A DNA stretch of 64,000 bases from Blastocatellia bacterium. Lineage in GTDB: Bacteria; Acidobacteriota; Blastocatellia; Chloracidobacteriales; Chloracidobacteriaceae. Below the pieces are notes generated by a model. That model was given only the letters and a program-made list of their open reading frames with translations. It did no database searches and had not been told where the DNA came from. Of the stretch, positions 9,165-58,290 are shown piece by piece. Both the position numbers and the translations under genes were made by a program. Where the stretch lies: the NCBI GenBank assembly GCA_019695185.1, contig JAIBAN010000016.1, positions 1 through 64,000 of the forward strand. The letters run 5' to 3'. Numbering within the stretch: the stretch's first letter is position 1; each line of letters starts with the position of its first letter.

Positions 9165-10154
9165 ATGGCGTTTTCAGAATCAAGGTTCCTGACTGAAATT
9201 GCCAATCACCCTGAGGACCGCGAACGCCGATTGCAGTATGCCGGGTGGTTGGAAGCAAACCGTGAACCACGTGCTGAACTCATTCGACTGGAGGAAGAGA
9301 TGCGCGGGCTTCCCATCTACGGCGACCGGTACTGGGAATTAAAACCCCGCCGCAATGCGTTGCGCTCCCAATGTCAACCGGACTGGCTGGCGCAGTTGAA
9401 ATACGGAACCGAGTATGAACCGGTGTTTCGGGAGGTGCCTCAAGGGTGGAAGGAACGGTGGCGGCTGCTCCGCGAATTTGTCGAACGGTGGCATGGGATT
9501 CCACTTGGCGATGTCGGGAGGTATCAGGAAAAAGTTCAGGAGACCGAATCCCAATTGCACCGCTCTCTTCCGCCAGCGGTCAAAGAGTGGATCGCTTTTT
9601 CCCATGAGTTGTTGGAAGCGGGTTGGTTTGGCGGAGTGCTACGTGACGACTACTGGGTTGAAGACTTGGTGGAGCACAACAATGTTTCGTTGCTGATTCA
9701 GTGTGAAGGGGATTTTTATTGGGCGGTCAAAAACGAATATCTCTCCGAGGACGATCCGCACGTCACCGGGTATCTGCTCGATGACGAGGGCGGGCTTGAT
9801 GATAGTTTTACAGAAAATGGAATCGAGGCTGCCTCAATCACCGACTTTGTCTTTTGCCATGTGAATGGTTGTAGTCATGGGCACGGCGGTGGTTTTCGAG
9901 TGGAGGTTCCCGCTTCCGAGGTGCAGGAAAAACTTGATGTGACGTTCGGTCGGAGTTCAGGCTTCGGAGATTTTCGCGTGTATGAAGCCCCAAATCTGTT
10001 CATCACTCTTCATCCATCCGAAGAGGAAGAGACTGAAGCGTCGCTCCATGTTGAAGTTTGGAAACCGGAGGCAGTCGATACCATCCCGAAATTTTTGTGG
10101 GATTACCTCAAGGGAGGTGGCATGTTTCACGGAGTTTTTGCAGACCATCTGTAA
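9165..10154 (+). CDS. TIGR02996 domain plus SMI1-like C-terminal domain protein (copy 2)
   Basis: 329 residues. The start is the ATG at 9165, with AGGAG at 9153-9157. Residues ~5-110 are nearly identical to copy 1 at 1977, including HPEDRERRLQYAGWLE and RAELIRLEEEMRGLPIYGDR. The C-terminal SMI1-like half (LPPAVKEWIAFSHELLEAGW ... DDYWVEDLVEHN ... FITLHPSEEE) differs at many positions. Copy 2 also has an acidic insert (EEEETEAS) absent from copy 1. Similarity to copy 1 extends about 18 bases past the stop codon (TAACTTCAAACTC), which marks the duplication edge. Confidence 0.8.
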   Translation: MAFSESRFLTEIANHPEDRERRLQYAGWLEANREPRAELIRLEEEMRGLPIYGDRYWELKPRRNALRSQCQPDWLAQLKYGTEYEPVFREVPQGWKERWRLLREFVERWHGIPLGDVGRYQEKVQETESQLHRSLPPAVKEWIAFSHELLEAGWFGGVLRDDYWVEDLVEHNNVSLLIQCEGDFYWAVKNEYLSEDDPHVTGYLLDDEGGLDDSFTENGIEAASITDFVFCHVNGCSHGHGGGFRVEVPASEVQEKLDVTFGRSSGFGDFRVYEAPNLFITLHPSEEEETEASLHVEVWKPEAVDTIPKFLWDYLKGGGMFHGVFADHL

Positions 10155-11624
10155 ATCGTAACTTCAAACTCCACGTCAGGCAGCCCCACCGAAGCCCGAC
10201 CATGCGCCAACCGGGTCGGGGGGCTGGCCCACGCAAGCGGGATCTCCTGCCGCTCCCGTCGTCCCCGAACGAATGCGACCGACCGGGCAGTTGATTGGTC
10301 GATACCGCATTAGCAGGTCCGGCCAGACCCAGCAACTGCCTCCGCCAGCCTCCGGGCGGCGAAGGCAACCGTTCGGCTCATCCCCTCCCAGAGTGATTCA
10401 TCAAGGCTGCGGCGACCCTCCAGGTTGCGAGCTTGAGGAAGCCCCAGTACCGTAACATTTTGCCCACCCCTCTCCAATATGCAAAAAAAGCCGTCAAGTT
10501 GTTGAATTCAGGGCAAAAAACGGAAAATTTTCGTGAAGGAATGTGAATTTTTCGTGAATTCGGCGTCAAAAAGAAAAAAACAGTACCAAAAAGGAAAAAT
10601 CCAGAAATGGAAATTCAGAAAAGGTGGTTGCAAGTTGGTGTACGGGGGCCTTGCTGATTCCAAAAACAAGGTTTGACATTCGTCCGATTTCAGCAAATCG
10701 GGACAGTACCAGGGGAATAGTTTGAAACAAATCACGGAAAAAAAGACGGCAAGATGTGTTCAACCCATGAATGTCCCGGTCGAATTCCGTCCAAAAAAGA
10801 TTGGCCCAGATGCCCGTTGTTTGAAAATCTAGCCAGTGAACAAACCAACTCTTTCAGAGAGAGCCTTGTGTGAACGGAAAAACAATCGGCAACATCCCGG
10901 AACCGGAGCAAGCCGAAATTCTGAAAGAGTTGCCCGGGGACGCTTTGGGTATCAGGTGGCGTTGCAGGTGTTGATGTTGTGTGTGTGGGTTTTTAGCCGA
11001 GCCTGATTGCCGAACTGAAACGTTCACCGATGCCCAATCGGGCTGGAAGCCTTGGGGGGCGAAAAAAGCGCCGGCCAGTTGTTCCAGGAAATCGAGATCA
11101 ATGACAATCTGCTGTCACGATGGAAAAGCCTGTTCAAGAATTGAGTCGGTGTGGTGTTTGAAAAATAACCGGCCGCAGCTCTTCAACAAAGCCAGAGCGA
11201 GGGAAAAAAATCGGGGAACCCCATGTCTTTCACTGCGGTTACAGGACACCAGCTCCACCTTGGTTTCCGGAGTTGAACGAAAATTTTACATCGAATGAAA
11301 TGCCCCATTGAAAGTGTGCCTGCTTTCTTACCAATCCGGCACGAAAGGATTCTTCAGTTTGACGAATGGCTGTCAGCTGAAGCGGTGAGGGTTGTGGTTG
11401 CTCGCGTCGAACACCATGGTTCGGGGAATTCAAGGAACAGATGATAAAGTGTAAATGAATAATCCAATGTGATTGTAAACCAGCCGTTTGGGAATGCACG
11501 GATTGACCCGGACACGGTGAATTGTCAAAAACAAGCGGCGGGTATCATGAAGGGGTCCTCACTTGTTTGTGAATTTGGATTTTCACGCCAAAGTTGCAAA
11601 CCGCATGGGGAAGGTTGAAACAGT
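10155..11624. other. 1.47 kb without a supported gene; decayed sequence
   Basis: The first ~300 bases are GC-rich and the stretch 10470-10800 is AT-rich with runs of A. Around 10870-11150 short pieces look coding, such as IPEPEQAEILKELPGD from a GTG at 10870. A frame near 11075-11145 reads EIEINDNLLSRWKSLFKN, faintly like the recognition helix of an IS3-type OrfA. None continues far enough to call a gene. This looks like an old insertion or decay zone between the second TIGR02996 gene and the gene at 11625. Confidence 0.4.
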
Positions 11625-28480: not shown

Positions 28481-28580
28481 GTTGCACCGCTACCATCACC
28501 GGTTTGCGCCGCCGCGACCAAATTACCCTATAATTTATGCCACCTGCTAAAGCAAATCCGGGCGCATGCCTTGGTTATGT
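28481..28580 (+). repeat. Integron attC-like site 1
   Basis: Left arm CCATCACCGGTTTGC (ending at 28507) and right arm GCAAATCCGGGCGCATGCC (28552-28570) are imperfectly inverted with unpaired bases. They are followed by the core-like GTTATGT at 28574-28580. The internal loop and both arms closely resemble sites 2 and 3. The 5' core (expected RYYYAAC near 28481) is degenerate (GTTGCAC), so recombination activity is doubtful. Confidence 0.55.
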
Positions 28581-28596
28581 GGTAGCTTCAGGAGGT

Positions 28597-28686
28597 GTAG
28601 CCATCACTGGTTTGCGAAGCGGCACCCAACTCACCCTTCATTGATGCCACCCGCTAAAGCAAACCGAGTGCATGGCAGGGTTAGCT
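28597..28686 (+). repeat. Integron attC-like site 2
   Basis: Left arm GCCATCACTGGTTTGC (28600-28615) pairs with right arm GCAAACCGAGTGCATGGC (28659-28676), leaving extrahelical bases as in genuine attC hairpins. It ends with the core GTTAGCT at 28680-28686. The 5' core is not recognisable. The GTTAGCT is exactly complementary to the AGCTAAC that opens site 3, as expected for the two ends of one cassette. Confidence 0.65.
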
Positions 28687-29316: not shown

Positions 29317-29415
29317 AGCTAACGGCAGCCATCACCGGTTTGCGAAGCGGTAACCAACTGTCCCTTCAATGAATCTGCCTGCTGGAGCAAATCCACGCGT
29401 ATGGCTTTGTTGGGC
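29317..29415 (+). repeat. Integron attC-like site 3 (complete)
   Basis: A 99-base site with 5' core AGCTAAC (29317-29323) and left arm AGCCATCACCGGTTTGC. The right arm GCAAATCCACGCGTATGGCT is complementary apart from a few bulged bases. The 3' core is GTTGGGC (29409-29415), a perfect GTTRRRY. The loop (GAAGCGGTAACCAACTGTCC...) resembles sites 1 and 2. The 5' core is the exact complement of the 3' core of site 2, the expected signature of one inserted cassette. Confidence 0.7.
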
Positions 29416-41064: not shown

Positions 41065-41454
41065 TCATTTCCCAATGGGCACCAGGCAACGCAAGCCCCC
41101 GATGAGGTAAAAGGTTTCGGCAGTCATCCAGCTTGAATCGGCAGAGGCGAGATAGACCGCTGTTGGGCAATCTCCTGAGGCTGGCCAATCCGGCCCAGCG
41201 GAGTGATTGAAGCCACGACTGGACGCCGTTCATGATTGCTCATGGTATTGAGCCCTTCTGTTTCCACCATTCCCGGATTGATGGAATTGACCCGGATTTT
41301 GCGTGGTCCCGATCCCTCTTTGCTGGAAGCGTAATTGACCACCACGGCTGTGACTTCGGAGCCCAGGTGGAGGGCGACTTCGGCTCCGATGCCCTGTGGA
41401 GGCTCCCGTCACCACCACAACTTTGCCCGCCAGTTTTTTTGCATTCGTACCCAT
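41065..41454 (-). pseudogene. SDR gene with internal deletion and frameshifts
   Basis: It starts MGTNAKKLAGKVVVVTGAST (complete dinucleotide motif start) and changes frame to ...VVVNYASSKEG. It then jumps directly to RKIRVNSINPGMVETEGLNT, SNHERRPVVASITPLGRIGQ and, after another shift, DSSWMTAETFYLIGG. A normal SDR has ~250 codons. Here ~130 remain, and the part with NNAG, the catalytic serine and YxxxK is missing. Both ends are kept while the middle is lost. Confidence 0.8.
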
Positions 41455-42117: not shown

Positions 42118-42714
42118 CTAATCCGGGGCCCCTAACGTTTGGGCGTAGGTTTTGCCGTAAGGATAGAAGAGATCCTTGCGGCCCTCCTGCCACGCGGCTT
42201 TCAGCTCCGGGGTGGTGATGTCCCAGTCGGTCCGACATTTTTGGTTGACCGCCCGTAAATCCTGGCGGAGGTCCTCCATGATGGGCCGGCCAAAGTACCA
42301 GTAGCCCTGGTAAATCCGGTAAATGACCAGGCCGGGTTCGAGCACAATCACGTGGGGAATCATGGGATTGTGAACCGGATCGGTGTATTCGACGATGTCG
42401 AGGTCTTTTTGGACCTTCCGGCCCGGGTCTGAGAGGAAAGGCCAGTGGGCCCCGACTCCCGAACGGTTGTCATTGGTCTCTGTGAGATTATCAGTGGTAA
42501 TGGTGACCAGACGGCAAAAGCCAACCTCCAGCTCCCGGTGGAGCTGGACCAGCCCTTCAGCCTGGCGACGGTCCTTGGGGCAATAGCTTCCCCGGCCCAG
42601 GACCAGCACCATTGGATCCGGGCCTTGCAAGCTGGAGAGGGTACGGCGTTTGGCGTTGTGGTCAGTCAGTTCATAGTCGGGGAAGCGCGCCCCGGGAACC
42701 ATGTCGGATCGCAT
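42118..42714 (-). CDS. Redoxin (AhpC/TSA-like) protein
   Basis: 198 residues. The thioredoxin-fold start DMVPGARFPDYELTDHNAKR is followed by MVLVLGRGSYCPKDRRQAEG, where C (~45) sits at the position of the peroxidatic cysteine, although the usual PxxxT/SxxC is altered. Further motifs are FLSDPGRKVQKDLDIVEYTD and IPHVIVLEPGLVIYRIYQGY. It probably reduces peroxides or serves as a thiol-dependent redox protein. It sits 15 bases after the RidA-like gene. Confidence 0.88.
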   Translation of the reverse strand: MRSDMVPGARFPDYELTDHNAKRRTLSSLQGPDPMVLVLGRGSYCPKDRRQAEGLVQLHRELEVGFCRLVTITTDNLTETNDNRSGVGAHWPFLSDPGRKVQKDLDIVEYTDPVHNPMIPHVIVLEPGLVIYRIYQGYWYFGRPIMEDLRQDLRAVNQKCRTDWDITTPELKAAWQEGRKDLFYPYGKTYAQTLGAPD

Positions 42715-42729
42715 AGAAAACCACCTTTC

Positions 42730-43224
42730 CTATTCTTTTGAGGACACCTCAAAGATGAGTTCCAACAAAACGGGACAGCCGAGCGGCAGGCTGACGACGC
42801 CCGCAACCAGCCGGGTTGGGTTCTTTTCTTTCCCAAATACCTGCTGGAGCAGTTCCGAAGCGCCGTCCGCCACTTGCGCGTGCGACCGGAAATCATCGAT
42901 GGTGACCACCGAAACACCCAACCGGACGACCCGCATCACCCGGTCAAGCGAACCCAACTGCTTTTGAACCAGTGCCAGCGCGTTGAGCGCCGCCCGGCGT
43001 GCTGCCTGTTGCCCTGTTTCCACGTCCAGTTCGGCCCCGAGCCGCCCAACGAAGGCCGCCTTCCCGTTTTCAATTGGCAGCATGCCGCTCAGGAACAGCA
43101 GCGTGCCGGTTTGGACTGTAGCCACATAGGTGCCCAGCGGTTCCGGTGCCGCCGGTAGCTGAATGCCAGATTCCTTCAACCGCTGCTCGGCGCTGGCAGG
43201 CCCGGCAGGGTCCTGGTTCACCAT
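42730..43224 (-). CDS. RidA/YjgF family protein
   Basis: 164 residues. It contains the YjgF pattern GTYVATVQTGTLLFLSGMLP, GQQAARRAALNALALVQKQL and VVRLGVSVVTIDDFRSHAQV, then ARLVAGV-like TRLVAGVVSLPLGCPVLLEL. The catalytic arginine of true RidA (R105) aligns with TRLVAG, and the C-terminal PVLLE is conserved. RidA deaminates reactive imines/enamines. This is the longer subgroup of unknown substrate. Its start overlaps the SDR stop by 7 bases. Confidence 0.9.
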   Translation of the reverse strand: MVNQDPAGPASAEQRLKESGIQLPAAPEPLGTYVATVQTGTLLFLSGMLPIENGKAAFVGRLGAELDVETGQQAARRAALNALALVQKQLGSLDRVMRVVRLGVSVVTIDDFRSHAQVADGASELLQQVFGKEKNPTRLVAGVVSLPLGCPVLLELIFEVSSKE

Positions 43225-43946
43225 TTTCCCGCGTGCGCACCGCCATCCACGTGCAGCACCTCCCCAGTCACCTGTTTGGCTTCCGTCAGATAGACAATGG
43301 CGTCGACGATATCCTGGACGTCTGAAATCTGGCCCATCGGTTGGAGGGTTTTCAGGAATTCCCGGGGGTTGTCTTTGTGCATCGGCGTATCGACAATCCC
43401 CGGCGCAACAGCGTTCACCCGAATGCCCGATTTTGCGTATTCAATCGCCAGGCTGCGGGTGGCGGCTTCCAGTCCGCCTTTGGTAATCATGGCCACGGCT
43501 GAGTTTGCGCCGGCAATCGGCTGGTCAACCAGCGTCGAGGTGATATTGACGATGCTCCCGCCTGTTTCCTGCACCAGCATCTGTTTGATGGCAAGCTGGC
43601 TGATGAAAAGAAATCCTTCGATATTGACAGAGGTCAGCGCCCGCAGGTCTTCCAGTTTGTAATCGGTGAAATTCTTTGAAATATAAATCCCGGCGTTATT
43701 GACCAGGGCGTCGATGGACCCAAACCGCCCCAAGGCGGTGTTAACGACCTGGGTTGCCGTGGCCGGGTTGCCGATATCGCCATCGACCAGGGCGAGGCGG
43801 TCAGACACCTTGAACGCACCCGAGTCGGTTATATTGCGCGAAGTTGCCACCACGTTGTAACCGCGTTCGAGGAAGGCATTCACCACTCCGGCACCAATCC
43901 CTTGGGAACCGCCGGTGACAATCATGGTTTTCTGTTTCTGTGTCAT
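43218..43946 (-). CDS. SDR family protein lacking the catalytic tyrosine
   Basis: 242 residues. The cofactor motif TGGSQGIG (11-18), NNAG (83-86) and the serine in ITSTL (S137) are present. The lysine K156 (MITKGGLEA) is in place, but position K-4 is alanine (A152) instead of tyrosine. The C-terminus (VAPGIVDTPMH ... VTGEVLHVDGGAHAGKW) is standard. It is the first gene of the leftward series and sits behind the promoter module at 43984-44074. Confidence 0.92.
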   Translation of the reverse strand: MTQKQKTMIVTGGSQGIGAGVVNAFLERGYNVVATSRNITDSGAFKVSDRLALVDGDIGNPATATQVVNTALGRFGSIDALVNNAGIYISKNFTDYKLEDLRALTSVNIEGFLFISQLAIKQMLVQETGGSIVNITSTLVDQPIAGANSAVAMITKGGLEAATRSLAIEYAKSGIRVNAVAPGIVDTPMHKDNPREFLKTLQPMGQISDVQDIVDAIVYLTEAKQVTGEVLHVDGGAHAGKW

Positions 43947-43983
43947 TGATCTGCTCCTTTTCTTCAGTTGAGGCCGAACCAGC

Positions 43984-44074
43984 TCGGCGTTTTACGATGA
44001 CCGGAAGATACAGCCAAAACCGCTTTGGTGCCGTTCGCAGATTGCGGTGACTGTCGCAGGATTGCGATTATCGA
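43984..44074 (-). promoter_or_regulatory. Promoter module of the leftward SDR-RidA-redoxin series
   Basis: Read leftward, it holds CGATAATCGCAAT then CCTGCGACAGTCACCG (44045-44074). After GAACGGCA, the core promoter TTGGCT-17 bp-TAAAAC spans CTTCCGGTCATCGT (43994-44007), followed by AACGCCGA (43984-43991). The same parts with the same 37-base spacing recur at 46716-46806 in the opposite orientation. The 29-base upstream box is the likely binding site of the AraC-family regulator encoded between them. Confidence 0.65.
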
Positions 44075-44734
44075 AAAAGCCAAGGCAAAACCAGGAAACC
44101 CAAATGGCATTTTTGATTTTTCTCAGGGCCATCGGTTGACTTTCCATGGCTGCCGCCCGGCTGTGAAAAAGAGGTGACAGAATAAAGGGTCCAGGCGGCT
44201 CGGAACACCGCTTGCCCTCCCTCCCACTATGCAAAAAGGAGCAAAAAAGCAAAACCCGAAATAGAAGGGTTTGGGGCTACCAAATGTGGCTCATTGGGGA
44301 ATCACCCGAAAGAGGTAGGCAAGTTGGAAAACAAAGCGGACGCAAGGGTTTCAGTGGGGGAGCGGCGAGCAAAACCTCAAAAATCAAACTGTCCGGTACA
44401 ACCAGGGGGGAAAAATCAAATCAAACTCTGGATTCGTTCCTCCACCTACCCCTTTTGAGGTACCCATTTCCTTCACCCAAAGGAGTAGGCAATCAACCCA
44501 CCATCTTGTGATGCGGATTTGTGTTTTATCCCCTATATTAGGCAGGCAATCGGGTTCGGCAACCCATGCCCGGCAACCGATTTCCTTTAACGGAAGCGCC
44601 TTTCCTGTGCCGGGAGTGGCTGCAATCAGCCTGCCATCCAACACAAACCGGGAACCCTCAATCGTGGTTGCAAGATGCGTTCTGCAACCACGGTTCCACC
44701 ACCGAAAAACAATTGACCAAAAGGAGACAATCTC
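44075..44734. other. 660 bases without a gene; contains a dispersed repeat
   Basis: No coding frame with convincing composition on either strand. The stretch 44224-44330 is a repeat shared with 58090-58200 (annotated separately). The last 40 bases before the catalase gene include its ribosome site (AAAAGGAGA). Confidence 0.5.
44224..44330 (+). repeat. Dispersed ~110 bp repeat, copy A
   Basis: It begins CACTATGCAAAAAGGA and contains CTACCAAATGTGGCTCAT, followed by CCCGAAAGAGGTAG. The same three blocks occur in the same order on the minus strand at 58200-58090. Between the blocks the two copies differ moderately. It could be the end of an insertion sequence or a miniature element, since copy B directly follows an IS630 remnant. 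Confidence 0.6.
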
Positions 44735-45694
44735 ATGCCATTGCCACAGGATGAACGGGTCGTTGCCCTGGCCGACGACCTGCTTCGGGTTTTTGACAAA
44801 ATCTTCGGGTTCCATCCCGGCTTTCGCCCGGCTCACGCCAAAGGCGTGATGTTGACCGGAGTCTTCACGCCGGCGGCCAGCGCGCAAAGCCTGACCAATG
44901 CTGAGCACGTGACGAGGGAAACCACCCCGGTAACGGTGCGCTTCTCGAACTCAACCGGTCTCCCGGCCTTGCCGGACACCGCTCCCGAAGCAAATCCGCG
45001 CGGACTGGCAATTCGCTTTCATCTGGCCGAGCATGTCCATACCGATATGATCTGCCATTCCACTGACGGTTTCCCGACCCATGACGGAAAGGAGTTCCTC
45101 GAATTGCTGGAGGCGGTGGCGGCCAGTACGCCGGAAGCCCCCTCGCCGAAACCAGTTGAGCAATTTCTTGGCTCCCACCCGGCTGCTTTGGCCTTTGTGC
45201 AAACTCCCAAACCCTTTTCCTCCAGCCTGGCGCGGGAAACGTATTTTGGCGTGACAGCCTTTGCCTTCACTAACGCGGATGGGGAAACGCGGTTTGGCCG
45301 TTATCGGGTTATTCCCGAGGCCGGGAATGATTACCTTTCCAATGCAGCGGTTTTCGCCCTTTCCGCCAATTACCATTTTGATGAAATTGCAAAGCGGGTG
45401 GCCCAGGAGCCGATACGCTTCAGGATCCTGGTGCAGGTGGCCGGAGCGGACGACCAGACTGACGATGCAACGGTTCACTGGCCGGAGGACCGTGCGCAAA
45501 TCGAGCTGGGCACCCTCGAGCTGACCGAACTTGTTCCGGACAATCTGGCCCAACAGAAACACATTATTTTTGACCCCATTCCACGGGTGGAAGGAGTCGC
45601 ACCTTCGGCTGATCCGTTACTGGAATTGCGGGCCGCGATTTATCTGTTGAGCGGACGGCGGCGGCGGCAGGCTCCGGCTCCGCTTTCCAAGTGA
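44735..45694 (+). CDS. Catalase-family peroxidase (small, mono-domain)
   Basis: 319 residues, typical of the short catalase-related peroxidases. The distal histidine lies in FRPAHAKGVMLTGVF, the strand VTVRFSNSTGLPALPDTAPE follows, and NPRGLAIRFHL and STDGFPTHDGKEFLELL are conserved. The proximal region ends DPLLELRAAIYLLSGRR, with the haem-ligand tyrosine. It uses hydrogen or organic peroxides in the cytoplasm and has no signal peptide. The AraC regulator follows 66 bases downstream in the same direction. Confidence 0.93.
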   Translation: MPLPQDERVVALADDLLRVFDKIFGFHPGFRPAHAKGVMLTGVFTPAASAQSLTNAEHVTRETTPVTVRFSNSTGLPALPDTAPEANPRGLAIRFHLAEHVHTDMICHSTDGFPTHDGKEFLELLEAVAASTPEAPSPKPVEQFLGSHPAALAFVQTPKPFSSSLARETYFGVTAFAFTNADGETRFGRYRVIPEAGNDYLSNAAVFALSANYHFDEIAKRVAQEPIRFRILVQVAGADDQTDDATVHWPEDRAQIELGTLELTELVPDNLAQQKHIIFDPIPRVEGVAPSADPLLELRAAIYLLSGRRRRQAPAPLSK

Positions 45695-45760
45695 ACCAAT
45701 TTCCATTCCGGAATTGTGCTTTCCGATGTGACAAACCTGAGGCGGGCTCACTGAAACAGC

Positions 45761-46654
45761 ATGGAACAACGTCGCCCAACTGACCGCCCCACCAGCGAGG
45801 AAATCGGGGAAATTCTTGACCGTCCGCCGGTTTTGATTGAGGAAACGATGCGGTGCGGAACTCGCCTGACCCAACGCTGGCAGCACGGGGCGGTGCACAA
45901 TTCGCTGCCGGCCCTGGCCGATCATGTCATCATGACGTACTACGGCCAGGACCGGGAAATCCGCTTCCAGGGAGATGAGGGGCGGTTTGCTTCACGGACC
46001 CGGCCCGGCTCCATCACCATTATTCCGGCAGGGTCTGCCGGCAGGTGGGATGTGGCCGGCTCGATAGAAGTGTCGCATGTCTATCTGCCGGCTGAACGAC
46101 TCCGGGCGGCAGCCGAGATTCTGAACACAGGGCAACGGATTGAACTGCTTGGCCGGGTTGGCTTTGCCGACCCGGTGGCAGCCGGCATCCTGGAACTTCT
46201 CAGCCGGGAGGCGGGGGCCGATGACCCTTCCGCCCGGCTTTTTGTAGAACAGGCAATTGACCTGCTCAACACCCAACTGATCCGGGGCCATTCATCCGTG
46301 CGGGCCTTGCCGACTCCCGAAGTCAAGCGCGGGCTGGCTCCCTGGCAGATCAAACGGGTCACCGAATACATGAACGAGCATCTGGGCGACGAAATCAGCC
46401 TCAACGAACTGGCCGGTGTCGTTCACCTCAGCCGATTTCATTTTGTTACCGCCTTCCGTCTGGCCACTGGCAAAACCCCGCATGAGTGGCTGGTGCTGCA
46501 ACGGATCGGGCGGGCCAAACAACTGCTGGGAGACCTCTTCCTCAACATCACGGAAATCGGGTTGTCGGTCGGTTATGGCACTCCTTCGGCGTTCACCGCA
46601 GCGTTCCGTAAGGTGGTGGGAGTTCCTCCAACTGAGTTCCGCCGCGCCCTCTAA
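45761..46654 (+). CDS. AraC-family transcriptional regulator
   Basis: 297 residues. The N-terminal cupin-like sensor (to ~190) contains SRTRPGSITIIPAGSAGRWD and VSHVYLPAERLRAAAEI. The C-terminal double HTH starts LAPWQIKRVTEYMNEHLGDE with ISLNELAGVVHLSRFHFVTA, FRLATGKTPHEWLVLQRIGR and ITEIGLSVGYGTPSAFTAAF. It lies between two outward-facing, nearly identical promoter modules and is the obvious candidate to control both. The sensor ligand is unknown. Confidence 0.94.
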   Translation: MEQRRPTDRPTSEEIGEILDRPPVLIEETMRCGTRLTQRWQHGAVHNSLPALADHVIMTYYGQDREIRFQGDEGRFASRTRPGSITIIPAGSAGRWDVAGSIEVSHVYLPAERLRAAAEILNTGQRIELLGRVGFADPVAAGILELLSREAGADDPSARLFVEQAIDLLNTQLIRGHSSVRALPTPEVKRGLAPWQIKRVTEYMNEHLGDEISLNELAGVVHLSRFHFVTAFRLATGKTPHEWLVLQRIGRAKQLLGDLFLNITEIGLSVGYGTPSAFTAAFRKVVGVPPTEFRRAL

Positions 46655-46715
46655 CCTCTGGGAAAGCGCCACCGACTGCACCCTCCTTGCCCCTTTCCTC
46701 AACCCGGAGCTTTTT

Positions 46716-46806
46716 TCGATAATCGCAATTCTGCGACAGTCACCGAAATCCCCGAACGGCAGCCCTCTTCCTTTGACAGTACCTTCCGGTCATCGTTGAA
46801 CGCCGA
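46716..46806 (+). promoter_or_regulatory. Second copy of the promoter module, driving the 63-codon gene
   Basis: It contains CGATAATCGCAAT and TCTGCGACAGTCACCG (46717-46745), GAACGGCA, the core TTGACA (46773-46778)-17 bp-TTGAAC over CTTCCGGTCATCGT (46783-46796), and AACGCCGA. Order and spacing (37 bases between box and core) equal those of the copy at 43984-44074. The upstream 29-mer differs at a single base. It lies ~40 bases before the ATG at 46843. Confidence 0.65.
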
Positions 46807-46842
46807 ACTGATTCGAACTCAACTGAAAAAAGGAGTGCTGTT

Positions 46843-47034
46843 ATGAAAATTCAAACAATTTCCCGCTCACAACGCTACGGCTATGAATCTGGGGTTGCCC
46901 AACTGTGGTATGCCAAGGGGCTGCATGAACAATCTCAAGGCAACTGGGAGGCAGCCGAAGCCTGTTTTGCCAGGGCCGACCAGCTTGAACGCCAATACCA
47001 GCTCCAAACCACCCGCCTGGCCCAAGCCGCATAA
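46843..47034 (+). CDS. Small TPR-like hypothetical protein
   Basis: 63 residues: KIQTISRSQRYGYESGVAQL ... WYAKGLHEQSQGNWEAAEAC-FARADQLERQYQLQ. It looks like a single TPR-type helix pair (A.GN..AA...A...). AAAAGGAG is the ribosome site. It has its own copy of the promoter module and so is probably induced together with the SDR series. Function unknown. Confidence 0.65.
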   Translation: MKIQTISRSQRYGYESGVAQLWYAKGLHEQSQGNWEAAEACFARADQLERQYQLQTTRLAQAA

Positions 47035-47827: not shown

Positions 47828-48457
47828 ATGAACCCTAACAATCCCATTCGAATTCTGATAGTGGACGACCATCCGATCCTGCGGGAAGGAATTGTCGCCA
47901 TTTTGAGCTGTGAAACAGATCTGGCAATTGTGGCTGAGGCCACCAATGGATTGGAGGCCATCGAGCAATTCCGGAACCACCATCCTGATGTCACCTTGAT
48001 GGACCTGCAAATGCCCCAAATGAACGGGACCGATGCCATTCTGGCCATCCGGGGGGAATTTTCCGATGCCCGGATAATTGTGTTGACGACCTACAGCGGG
48101 GACGTCCTGGCTGTCCGGGCTTTCAAGGCCGGGGCGGTCGGCTACTTGCTCAAAAGCATGCTCCGCAAAGAATTGGTTGAAACCATCCGGAGTGTCCATG
48201 CCGGGAAAAAGCGAATTCCCCCCGAGGTTGCCCAGGCGATGGCGGAACACATGGCGGATGATCCCCTGACCGACCGCGAGGTTGAGGTTTTGCAGCAGGT
48301 GGCGGCTGGTAATGCCAACAAAATCGTGGCTGGCCTGTTGGCCATTTCTGAAGAGACGGTCAAAGCCCACATGCGGAATATCCTCTCCAAACTGGGAGCG
48401 AACGACCGGACTCATGCAGTCACCATCGCCTTGAAACGCGGTATCATCGAAATCTAA
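47828..48457 (+). CDS. NarL/FixJ-type response regulator
   Basis: 209 residues. The receiver has D13/D14 (ILIVDDHPILREGIVAIL), phospho-Asp D59 (VTLMDLQMPQMNG), T87 (VLTTYSG) and the lysine in GYLLKSML. The LuxR HTH follows (LTDREVEVLQQVAAGNANKI ... SEETVKAHMRNILSKLGAND). It binds DNA when phosphorylated. The likely partner is the HisKA_3-type kinase encoded downstream (49169-52211), although that gene is interrupted by a frameshift. Confidence 0.95.
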   Translation: MNPNNPIRILIVDDHPILREGIVAILSCETDLAIVAEATNGLEAIEQFRNHHPDVTLMDLQMPQMNGTDAILAIRGEFSDARIIVLTTYSGDVLAVRAFKAGAVGYLLKSMLRKELVETIRSVHAGKKRIPPEVAQAMAEHMADDPLTDREVEVLQQVAAGNANKIVAGLLAISEETVKAHMRNILSKLGANDRTHAVTIALKRGIIEI

Positions 48458-58089: not shown

Positions 58090-58200
58090 TGGTTTCCTGG
58101 TCGGCTACCTCTTTCGGGGTAGGTCCCCATGAGCCACATTTGGTAGCTCCCACCCATTCTTTCTTGGGATGTGGTTTTTTCGTCCTTTTTGCATAGTGGA
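58090..58200 (-). repeat. Dispersed ~110 bp repeat, copy B
   Basis: On the minus strand it reads CACTATGCAAAAAGGA, then CTACCAAATGTGGCTCAT, then CCCGAAAGAGGTAG, in the same order and spacing as copy A at 44224-44330. It lies ~60 bases after the IS630 transposase remnant and ~90 bases before the TolC gene. Confidence 0.6.
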
Positions 58201-58290
58201 AGTGTTGCCAGCCGGTATCCGGGCCGCCTGGAACGTTCCTGTTGGTCCCGAACACCGGCAGCAAAGAAAATGGGGTTTGAAGATTCGATT

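Follow-up and report, generated by a model that had tools for sequence, protein, structure and literature searches.

A duplicated promoter module around a catalase-AraC gene pair as the predicted target of a local AraC-type activator in a Blastocatellia bacterium

In a 64,000-nucleotide stretch of DNA from a Blastocatellia bacterium (the whole of which we call the window), two outward-facing copies of one promoter module enclose a catalase gene and the gene for an AraC-family regulator, and each copy holds a 37-bp site that recurs beside orthologues of this regulator in Alphaproteobacteria. Because the same operator stands beside the same regulator in such distant bacteria, the AraC protein very probably switches on both promoters, that of an SDR-led detoxification operon on the left and that of an orphan 63-codon gene on the right. 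Computation shows the module to be duplicated, identifies the operator, ties that operator to AraC orthologues, and establishes the promoter geometry. The genes at the locus are as follows.

42118-42714, minus strand: AhpC/TSA-like gene, 15-bp gap after the Rid/YjgF gene
42730-43224, minus strand: YjgF/Rid-family gene, 7-bp overlap with the SDR gene
43218-43946, minus strand: SDR oxidoreductase, first leftward gene (Pfam adh_short_C2, E 1.5e-48)
44735-45694, plus strand: catalase-family protein, 319 aa (Pfam PF00199, E 1.4e-26), with a 66-bp gap to AraC downstream
45761-46654, plus strand: AraC-family regulator with a cupin-like N-terminal domain, dimerisation helices, and two HTH motifs (PF12833, E 9.3e-20)
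46843-47034, plus strand: 63-codon gene with a good Shine-Dalgarno sequence and no family match

Module, operator, and core promoter

The two copies are inverted relative to each other and align without gaps over 124 bp, both reaching as far as the ribosome-binding site. Their elements are listed here, those of the operators and -10 hexamers as predicted.

43955-44078, minus strand: left module, comprising operator, -10, leader, and Shine-Dalgarno region, with 98/124 identities to the right module
46712-46835, plus strand: right module, found by repeat detection, BLAST, and ungapped alignment
44031-44067, minus strand: left AraC-type operator, TCGCAATCCTGCGACAGTCACCGCAATCTGCGAACGG, a perfect match to the cross-species consensus, its two direct half-sites set at a period of 20 bp
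46723-46759, plus strand: right AraC-type operator, TCGCAATTCTGCGACAGTCACCGAAATCCCCGAACGG, 0 mismatches to the cross-species consensus
44005-44010, minus strand: -10 TATCTT of the SDR promoter, 20 bp past the operator
46780-46785, plus strand: -10 TACCTT of the right promoter, 20 bp past the operator

An initial annotation of the window had placed two outward-facing copies at this locus, and repeat search and alignment confirm them there, although the module is larger than the approximately 90 bp that had been proposed. The 29-base box said to differ at one position was recovered at 46717-46745 (plus strand) and 44045-44073 (minus strand), with 28/29 positions identical; the box is real, but the functional unit would be the 37-bp operator plus the -10 element. 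Likewise, the blocks GAACGGCA, CTTCCGGTCATCGT, and AACGCCGA are common to both copies at the identical spacing that had been claimed, because the alignment is gap-free up to the Shine-Dalgarno sequence, and the genes behind the copies are indeed unrelated (an SDR and a 63-codon frame that matches no family). The repeat search returned the inverted arms at 92% identity for 44029-44078/46712-46761 and at 83% for 43959-44018/46772-46831. Conservation between the copies is uneven, with 44/48 identities over a T-run and the operator, 6/15 in the spacer, 19/24 over 46775-46798, and 29/37 in the 5' leader. Shuffled windows give a chance expectation of 0 for such a pair. When the whole 8.33-Mb genome was searched by BLAST, the second copy was found at E 1.8e-27 and the next match at 0.57, leaving only two copies, and pattern scans of the same genome at up to three mismatches returned these two sites only (reversed-pattern control, 0). 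The regulator is thus local, the genome having just these two sites for it, and the suggestion that the module consensus would uncover the rest of a regulon fails here, as none is left to find. Outside its own genome, the module DNA gave just one match among 58 relatives and 162 class genomes, of 29 bases (E 0.0015) and near chance, and the window has no match in Rfam.

The 37-bp site common to both copies reads TCGCAA-N4-GCGAYAGTCRCCGMAA-N4-CGAACGG. It contains conserved direct half-sites of the type CGCAA-N4-nCGA at a period of 20 bp, where they match at 61%, compared with 16%-35% at other periods. From the end of the operator to a conserved -10 element the distance is exactly 20 bp, and at this fixed offset the -10 signal across 14 promoters had a mean score of 5.0, while 3000 shifted controls gave 4.0 at most (0/3000 as high as observed). 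Given a 17-bp spacer, the -35 elements would be CGGCAC/CGGCAG, overlapping the downstream half-site; GAACGGCA corresponds to this half-site over -35, and the end of the -10 element forms the beginning of CTTCCGGTCATCGT, which then extends into the start region. The sequence TTGACA at 46773-46778 was considered as a -35 element and rejected, as it is not kept in the left copy and directly abuts the -10. With an operator that overlaps -35 and stands at a fixed distance from -10, the predicted layout is the geometry of a class II activator. Neither -10 hexamer matches TATAAT well, and a scan with the sigma-70 consensus found no promoter, a combination that suits dependence on an activator.

The same poor hexamers, taken with a 63-codon product that has no convincing homologue, allow for the right promoter being a relic. 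The promoter would then have been segmentally duplicated, with the left (SDR) copy alone functional and controlled by AraC and the right copy stranded before a spurious frame. Among 57 related genomes the 63-aa product has no full-length homologue, its one weak partial match lying inside a large frame, and the GC3 of its gene (0.547) is below the 0.61-0.73 of neighboring genes. However, the right copy, despite its diverged spacer, still has a perfect match to the cross-species operator, a -10 in the same position, and a good Shine-Dalgarno sequence, and Sphingopyxis and Sinorhizobium likewise have two sites flanking AraC. We consider the relic unlikely, if worth taking seriously, and infer that the 63-aa product is real.

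A further question is the sign of control. AraC might bind these sites as a repressor, or as a ligand-switched repressor and activator like AraC itself, and the computed results are compatible with either sign; class II positions are also able to exclude RNA polymerase. Weak -10 hexamers and the lack of a good sigma-70 promoter nevertheless argue against repression, and the 20 bp from site end to -10 fits known AraC-family activators (AggR, 21-22 bp; PMC6392122). Repression at these promoters, plain or ligand-switched, seems improbable to us.

The window holds other repeats as well. A second pair, at 44190-44318 (plus strand) and 58105-58232 (minus strand), is approximately 130 bp long and 78% identical, with two copies only in the genome. 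Each copy is oriented the same way toward an outward operon (the SDR operon and a TolC/HlyD/EmrB-like operon), ATGAGCCACATTTGGTAG and TTTTTGCATAGTGG are conserved, and RNA folding of the pair was no better than that of shuffled sequence; it is possibly another shared promoter module. In the left part of the window, 1986-2962 and 9177-10171 are direct repeats of a duplicated sequence (80%-95% identity, approximately 7.2 kb apart), and a 65-nt repeat occurs in three copies within 28492-28663 and 29327-29391, one being 80% and one 60% identical to the reference copy.

The operator and AraC orthologues across genomes

The regulator has a C-terminal domain of approximately 100 aa with two HTH motifs, as is characteristic of the AraC/XylS family (PF00165, E 1.1e-13, beside the PF12833 match), and the DNA-binding domains of AdpA and AraC match it by both sequence and fold. 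Full-length AraC-family activators are the best matches to its predicted fold, in which the placement of domains is unreliable (pTM 0.52). None of the 396 genomes of its own phylum contains an orthologue. When about 85,000 species genomes were scanned, however, orthologues at 49%-67% identity emerged in Alphaproteobacteria, namely in Sinorhizobium, Rhizobium, Bradyrhizobium, Methylobacterium, Rhodomicrobium, Reyranella, and Sphingopyxis. In a maximum-likelihood tree these group with the window protein in a single clade (99/99), separate from the homologues in relatives of its own class, and the second HTH distinguishes paralogues (VGYxTPSAF) from orthologues (LGYASQTAF). Given this distribution and grouping, araC and its operator were probably gained horizontally from an Alphaproteobacteria-like source. 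If so, the DNA flanking the foreign loci should be unrelated to that in the window, save for what selection has kept.

This makes a match at the foreign loci informative. We searched with the 46 positions shared by the two window copies, a query built from no foreign locus, and the best match fell at the corresponding site in 18/18 orthologue loci, with 14-19 mismatches of 46, compared with a simulated median of 21-22. At nearly all 18 loci the site is next to the AraC gene or precedes the adjoining oxidoreductase gene; in the Bradyrhizobium, Rhizobium, and G248 loci the best match is only 3-45 bp from the AraC gene, and in Rhodomicrobium (L052) it is approximately 3.9 kb from the main orthologue, beside a second, partial AraC copy. 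Sites with at most three mismatches to the consensus occur in 12/16 orthologue-carrying genomes, one or two in each (reversed control, 0), always in the AraC region and coinciding with the sites in the orthologue loci; some of the loci counted had also served to refine this consensus, an overlap of which the window-only test is free. Sites in Methylobacterium (eight mismatches) and genome G260 (seven) are weak taken alone. Among 199 genomes of the Bradyrhizobium family, sites at this threshold appear in two only, both with an orthologue, and the other two carriers (at least 52% identity) have weaker sites, of five and seven mismatches, beside the gene. The 195 genomes of the family without an orthologue, including 21 that have paralogues at 31%-39% identity, contain zero strict sites.

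At two loci of paralogues that are 34%-37% identical (L073:2353-2389 and L080:2290-2326), we observed degenerate, similarly built sites, CCGCAATCGC..CGATAGCCGCCGCAATCGC, hinting that the paralogue group may use a related operator.

The initial annotation had taken the match between the promoters to be regulatory and the intervening AraC protein to be the activator, and comparative sequence evidence supports both: the window-only test at 18 loci, the restriction of strict sites to the AraC locus, and the apparent class II geometry. Adjacency by itself is no proof of binding, and the module might instead be bound by an AraC paralogue, given that the genome may hold more AraC-like proteins (25 first-look candidates, one at E ≤ 1e-20), or by the LuxR-type response regulator at 47828-48457. 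Yet the site follows the AraC orthologue across genomes that share little other neighborhood, is absent where the orthologue is absent in the 195 family genomes, and has direct repeats at 20 bp, which is AraC-like geometry, so that another regulator is very improbable. Inverted copies of approximately 124 bp, lying 2.6 kb apart around two genes of which AraC was probably acquired horizontally, might suggest the terminal repeats of a small mobile element with catalase and AraC as its cargo. This reading was rejected and is hardly credible, since only this pair exists in the genome, no transposase is present among the ORFs between the copies, the repeats reach the Shine-Dalgarno sequences of unrelated outward genes, and the site in other bacteria is a promoter element that is not arranged as an inverted pair.

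Genes under predicted control and a proposed mechanism

The closely packed SDR, Rid/YjgF, and AhpC/TSA-like genes are very likely co-transcribed. The leftward series continues with a glyoxalase-like gene after a 114-bp gap, a 466-bp stretch, a thioesterase-like gene, and an NmrA-like gene, the last about 48% identical to that of Methylobacterium. The 466-bp stretch holds what is left of a second SDR gene (41124-41454, minus strand), a degraded remnant with fragments in different frames and the middle missing. A half-site scan found no operator upstream of the catalase gene, so the catalase of the catalase-AraC unit is no obvious target.

In other bacteria the site precedes different genes. Behind it, Sinorhizobium, Sphingopyxis, Reyranella, and G260 have SDR genes, preceded in G260 by an HbpS-like gene. 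Bradyrhizobium and Rhodomicrobium have a 2Fe-2S/FAD/molybdopterin oxidoreductase operon in this position, a Rhizobium has an epoxide hydrolase, and Methylobacterium has an NmrA-like gene with efflux genes after it. The labels HbpS-like, efflux, and molybdopterin subunit are based partly on reading translations. In Rhodomicrobium, the second, partial AraC copy (L052:10129-11459) has its own operator upstream of the molybdopterin-type oxidoreductase operon. The common theme of these putative targets is oxidative or carbonyl detoxification, and the inducer is perhaps a reactive carbonyl or another electrophile.

The account we favor, and hold to be highly likely, is that of a local AraC-type activator with two targets. 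The modules would be paralogous copies of one AraC-dependent promoter, and in each an AraC dimer would bind the two direct half-sites. With the downstream half-site over -35 and 20 bp ahead of a weak -10, the bound protein would recruit RNA polymerase as a class II activator. Leftward, AraC would drive the SDR - Rid/YjgF - AhpC-like operon and probably further genes; rightward, it would drive the 63-codon gene; and in Alphaproteobacteria its orthologues would control other oxidoreductase operons through the same operator. Binding, activation and its sign, the extent of the operon, and the ligand are steps that this explanation supplies. A broader and more tentative idea, which may well prove wrong, is that araC and its 37-bp operator form a portable cassette that crosses phyla and is reused for unrelated detoxification enzymes (SDR, molybdopterin oxidoreductase, epoxide hydrolase, NmrA-like), with promoter duplication recruiting new genes, here an unseen 63-aa stress protein.

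Relation to known systems

A literature search, with most subscription journals outside its reach, found no described operator of this type; the arrangement is familiar in type, and this regulator-operator pair appears undescribed so far. A regulator family for which no described operator was found would thereby gain a defined predicted DNA target, and an operon and an orphan small gene would be assigned to a regulator in a little-studied lineage. An operator-regulator pair kept between phyla while the controlled genes are swapped would also offer a clean case for the transfer and rewiring of local regulons.

RclR, the reactive-chlorine AraC-type regulator (NF040475), shows weak similarity (42.8 bits over residues 80-295, reaching into the sensor domain) and has target genes of oxidative-stress type, as are predicted here; assignment of the regulator as RclR was rejected, as 42.8 bits compares with a cut-off of 400. 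XylS at Pm and AraC at I1-I2 are class II activators with tandem direct half-sites, spaced in both at a period of 21 bp. The predicted system resembles them in having two direct half-sites approximately two helical turns apart, the downstream one over -35, with weak core elements, and in a cupin-like sensor domain with two HTH motifs. It differs from them in its period of 20 bp, its own motif CGCAA-N4-nCGA, and what would be another class of inducer and other target genes. AggR promoters offer a further parallel, with a site over -35, 21-22 bp upstream of -10, that has been read as a contact with sigma domain 4 (PMC6392122); the site here is similarly close to -10, with a gap of 20 bp. Unlike AggR, which has a single site per fimbrial promoter (PMC6392122), the regulator described here would act through two half-sites at each promoter of a local, two-promoter regulon.
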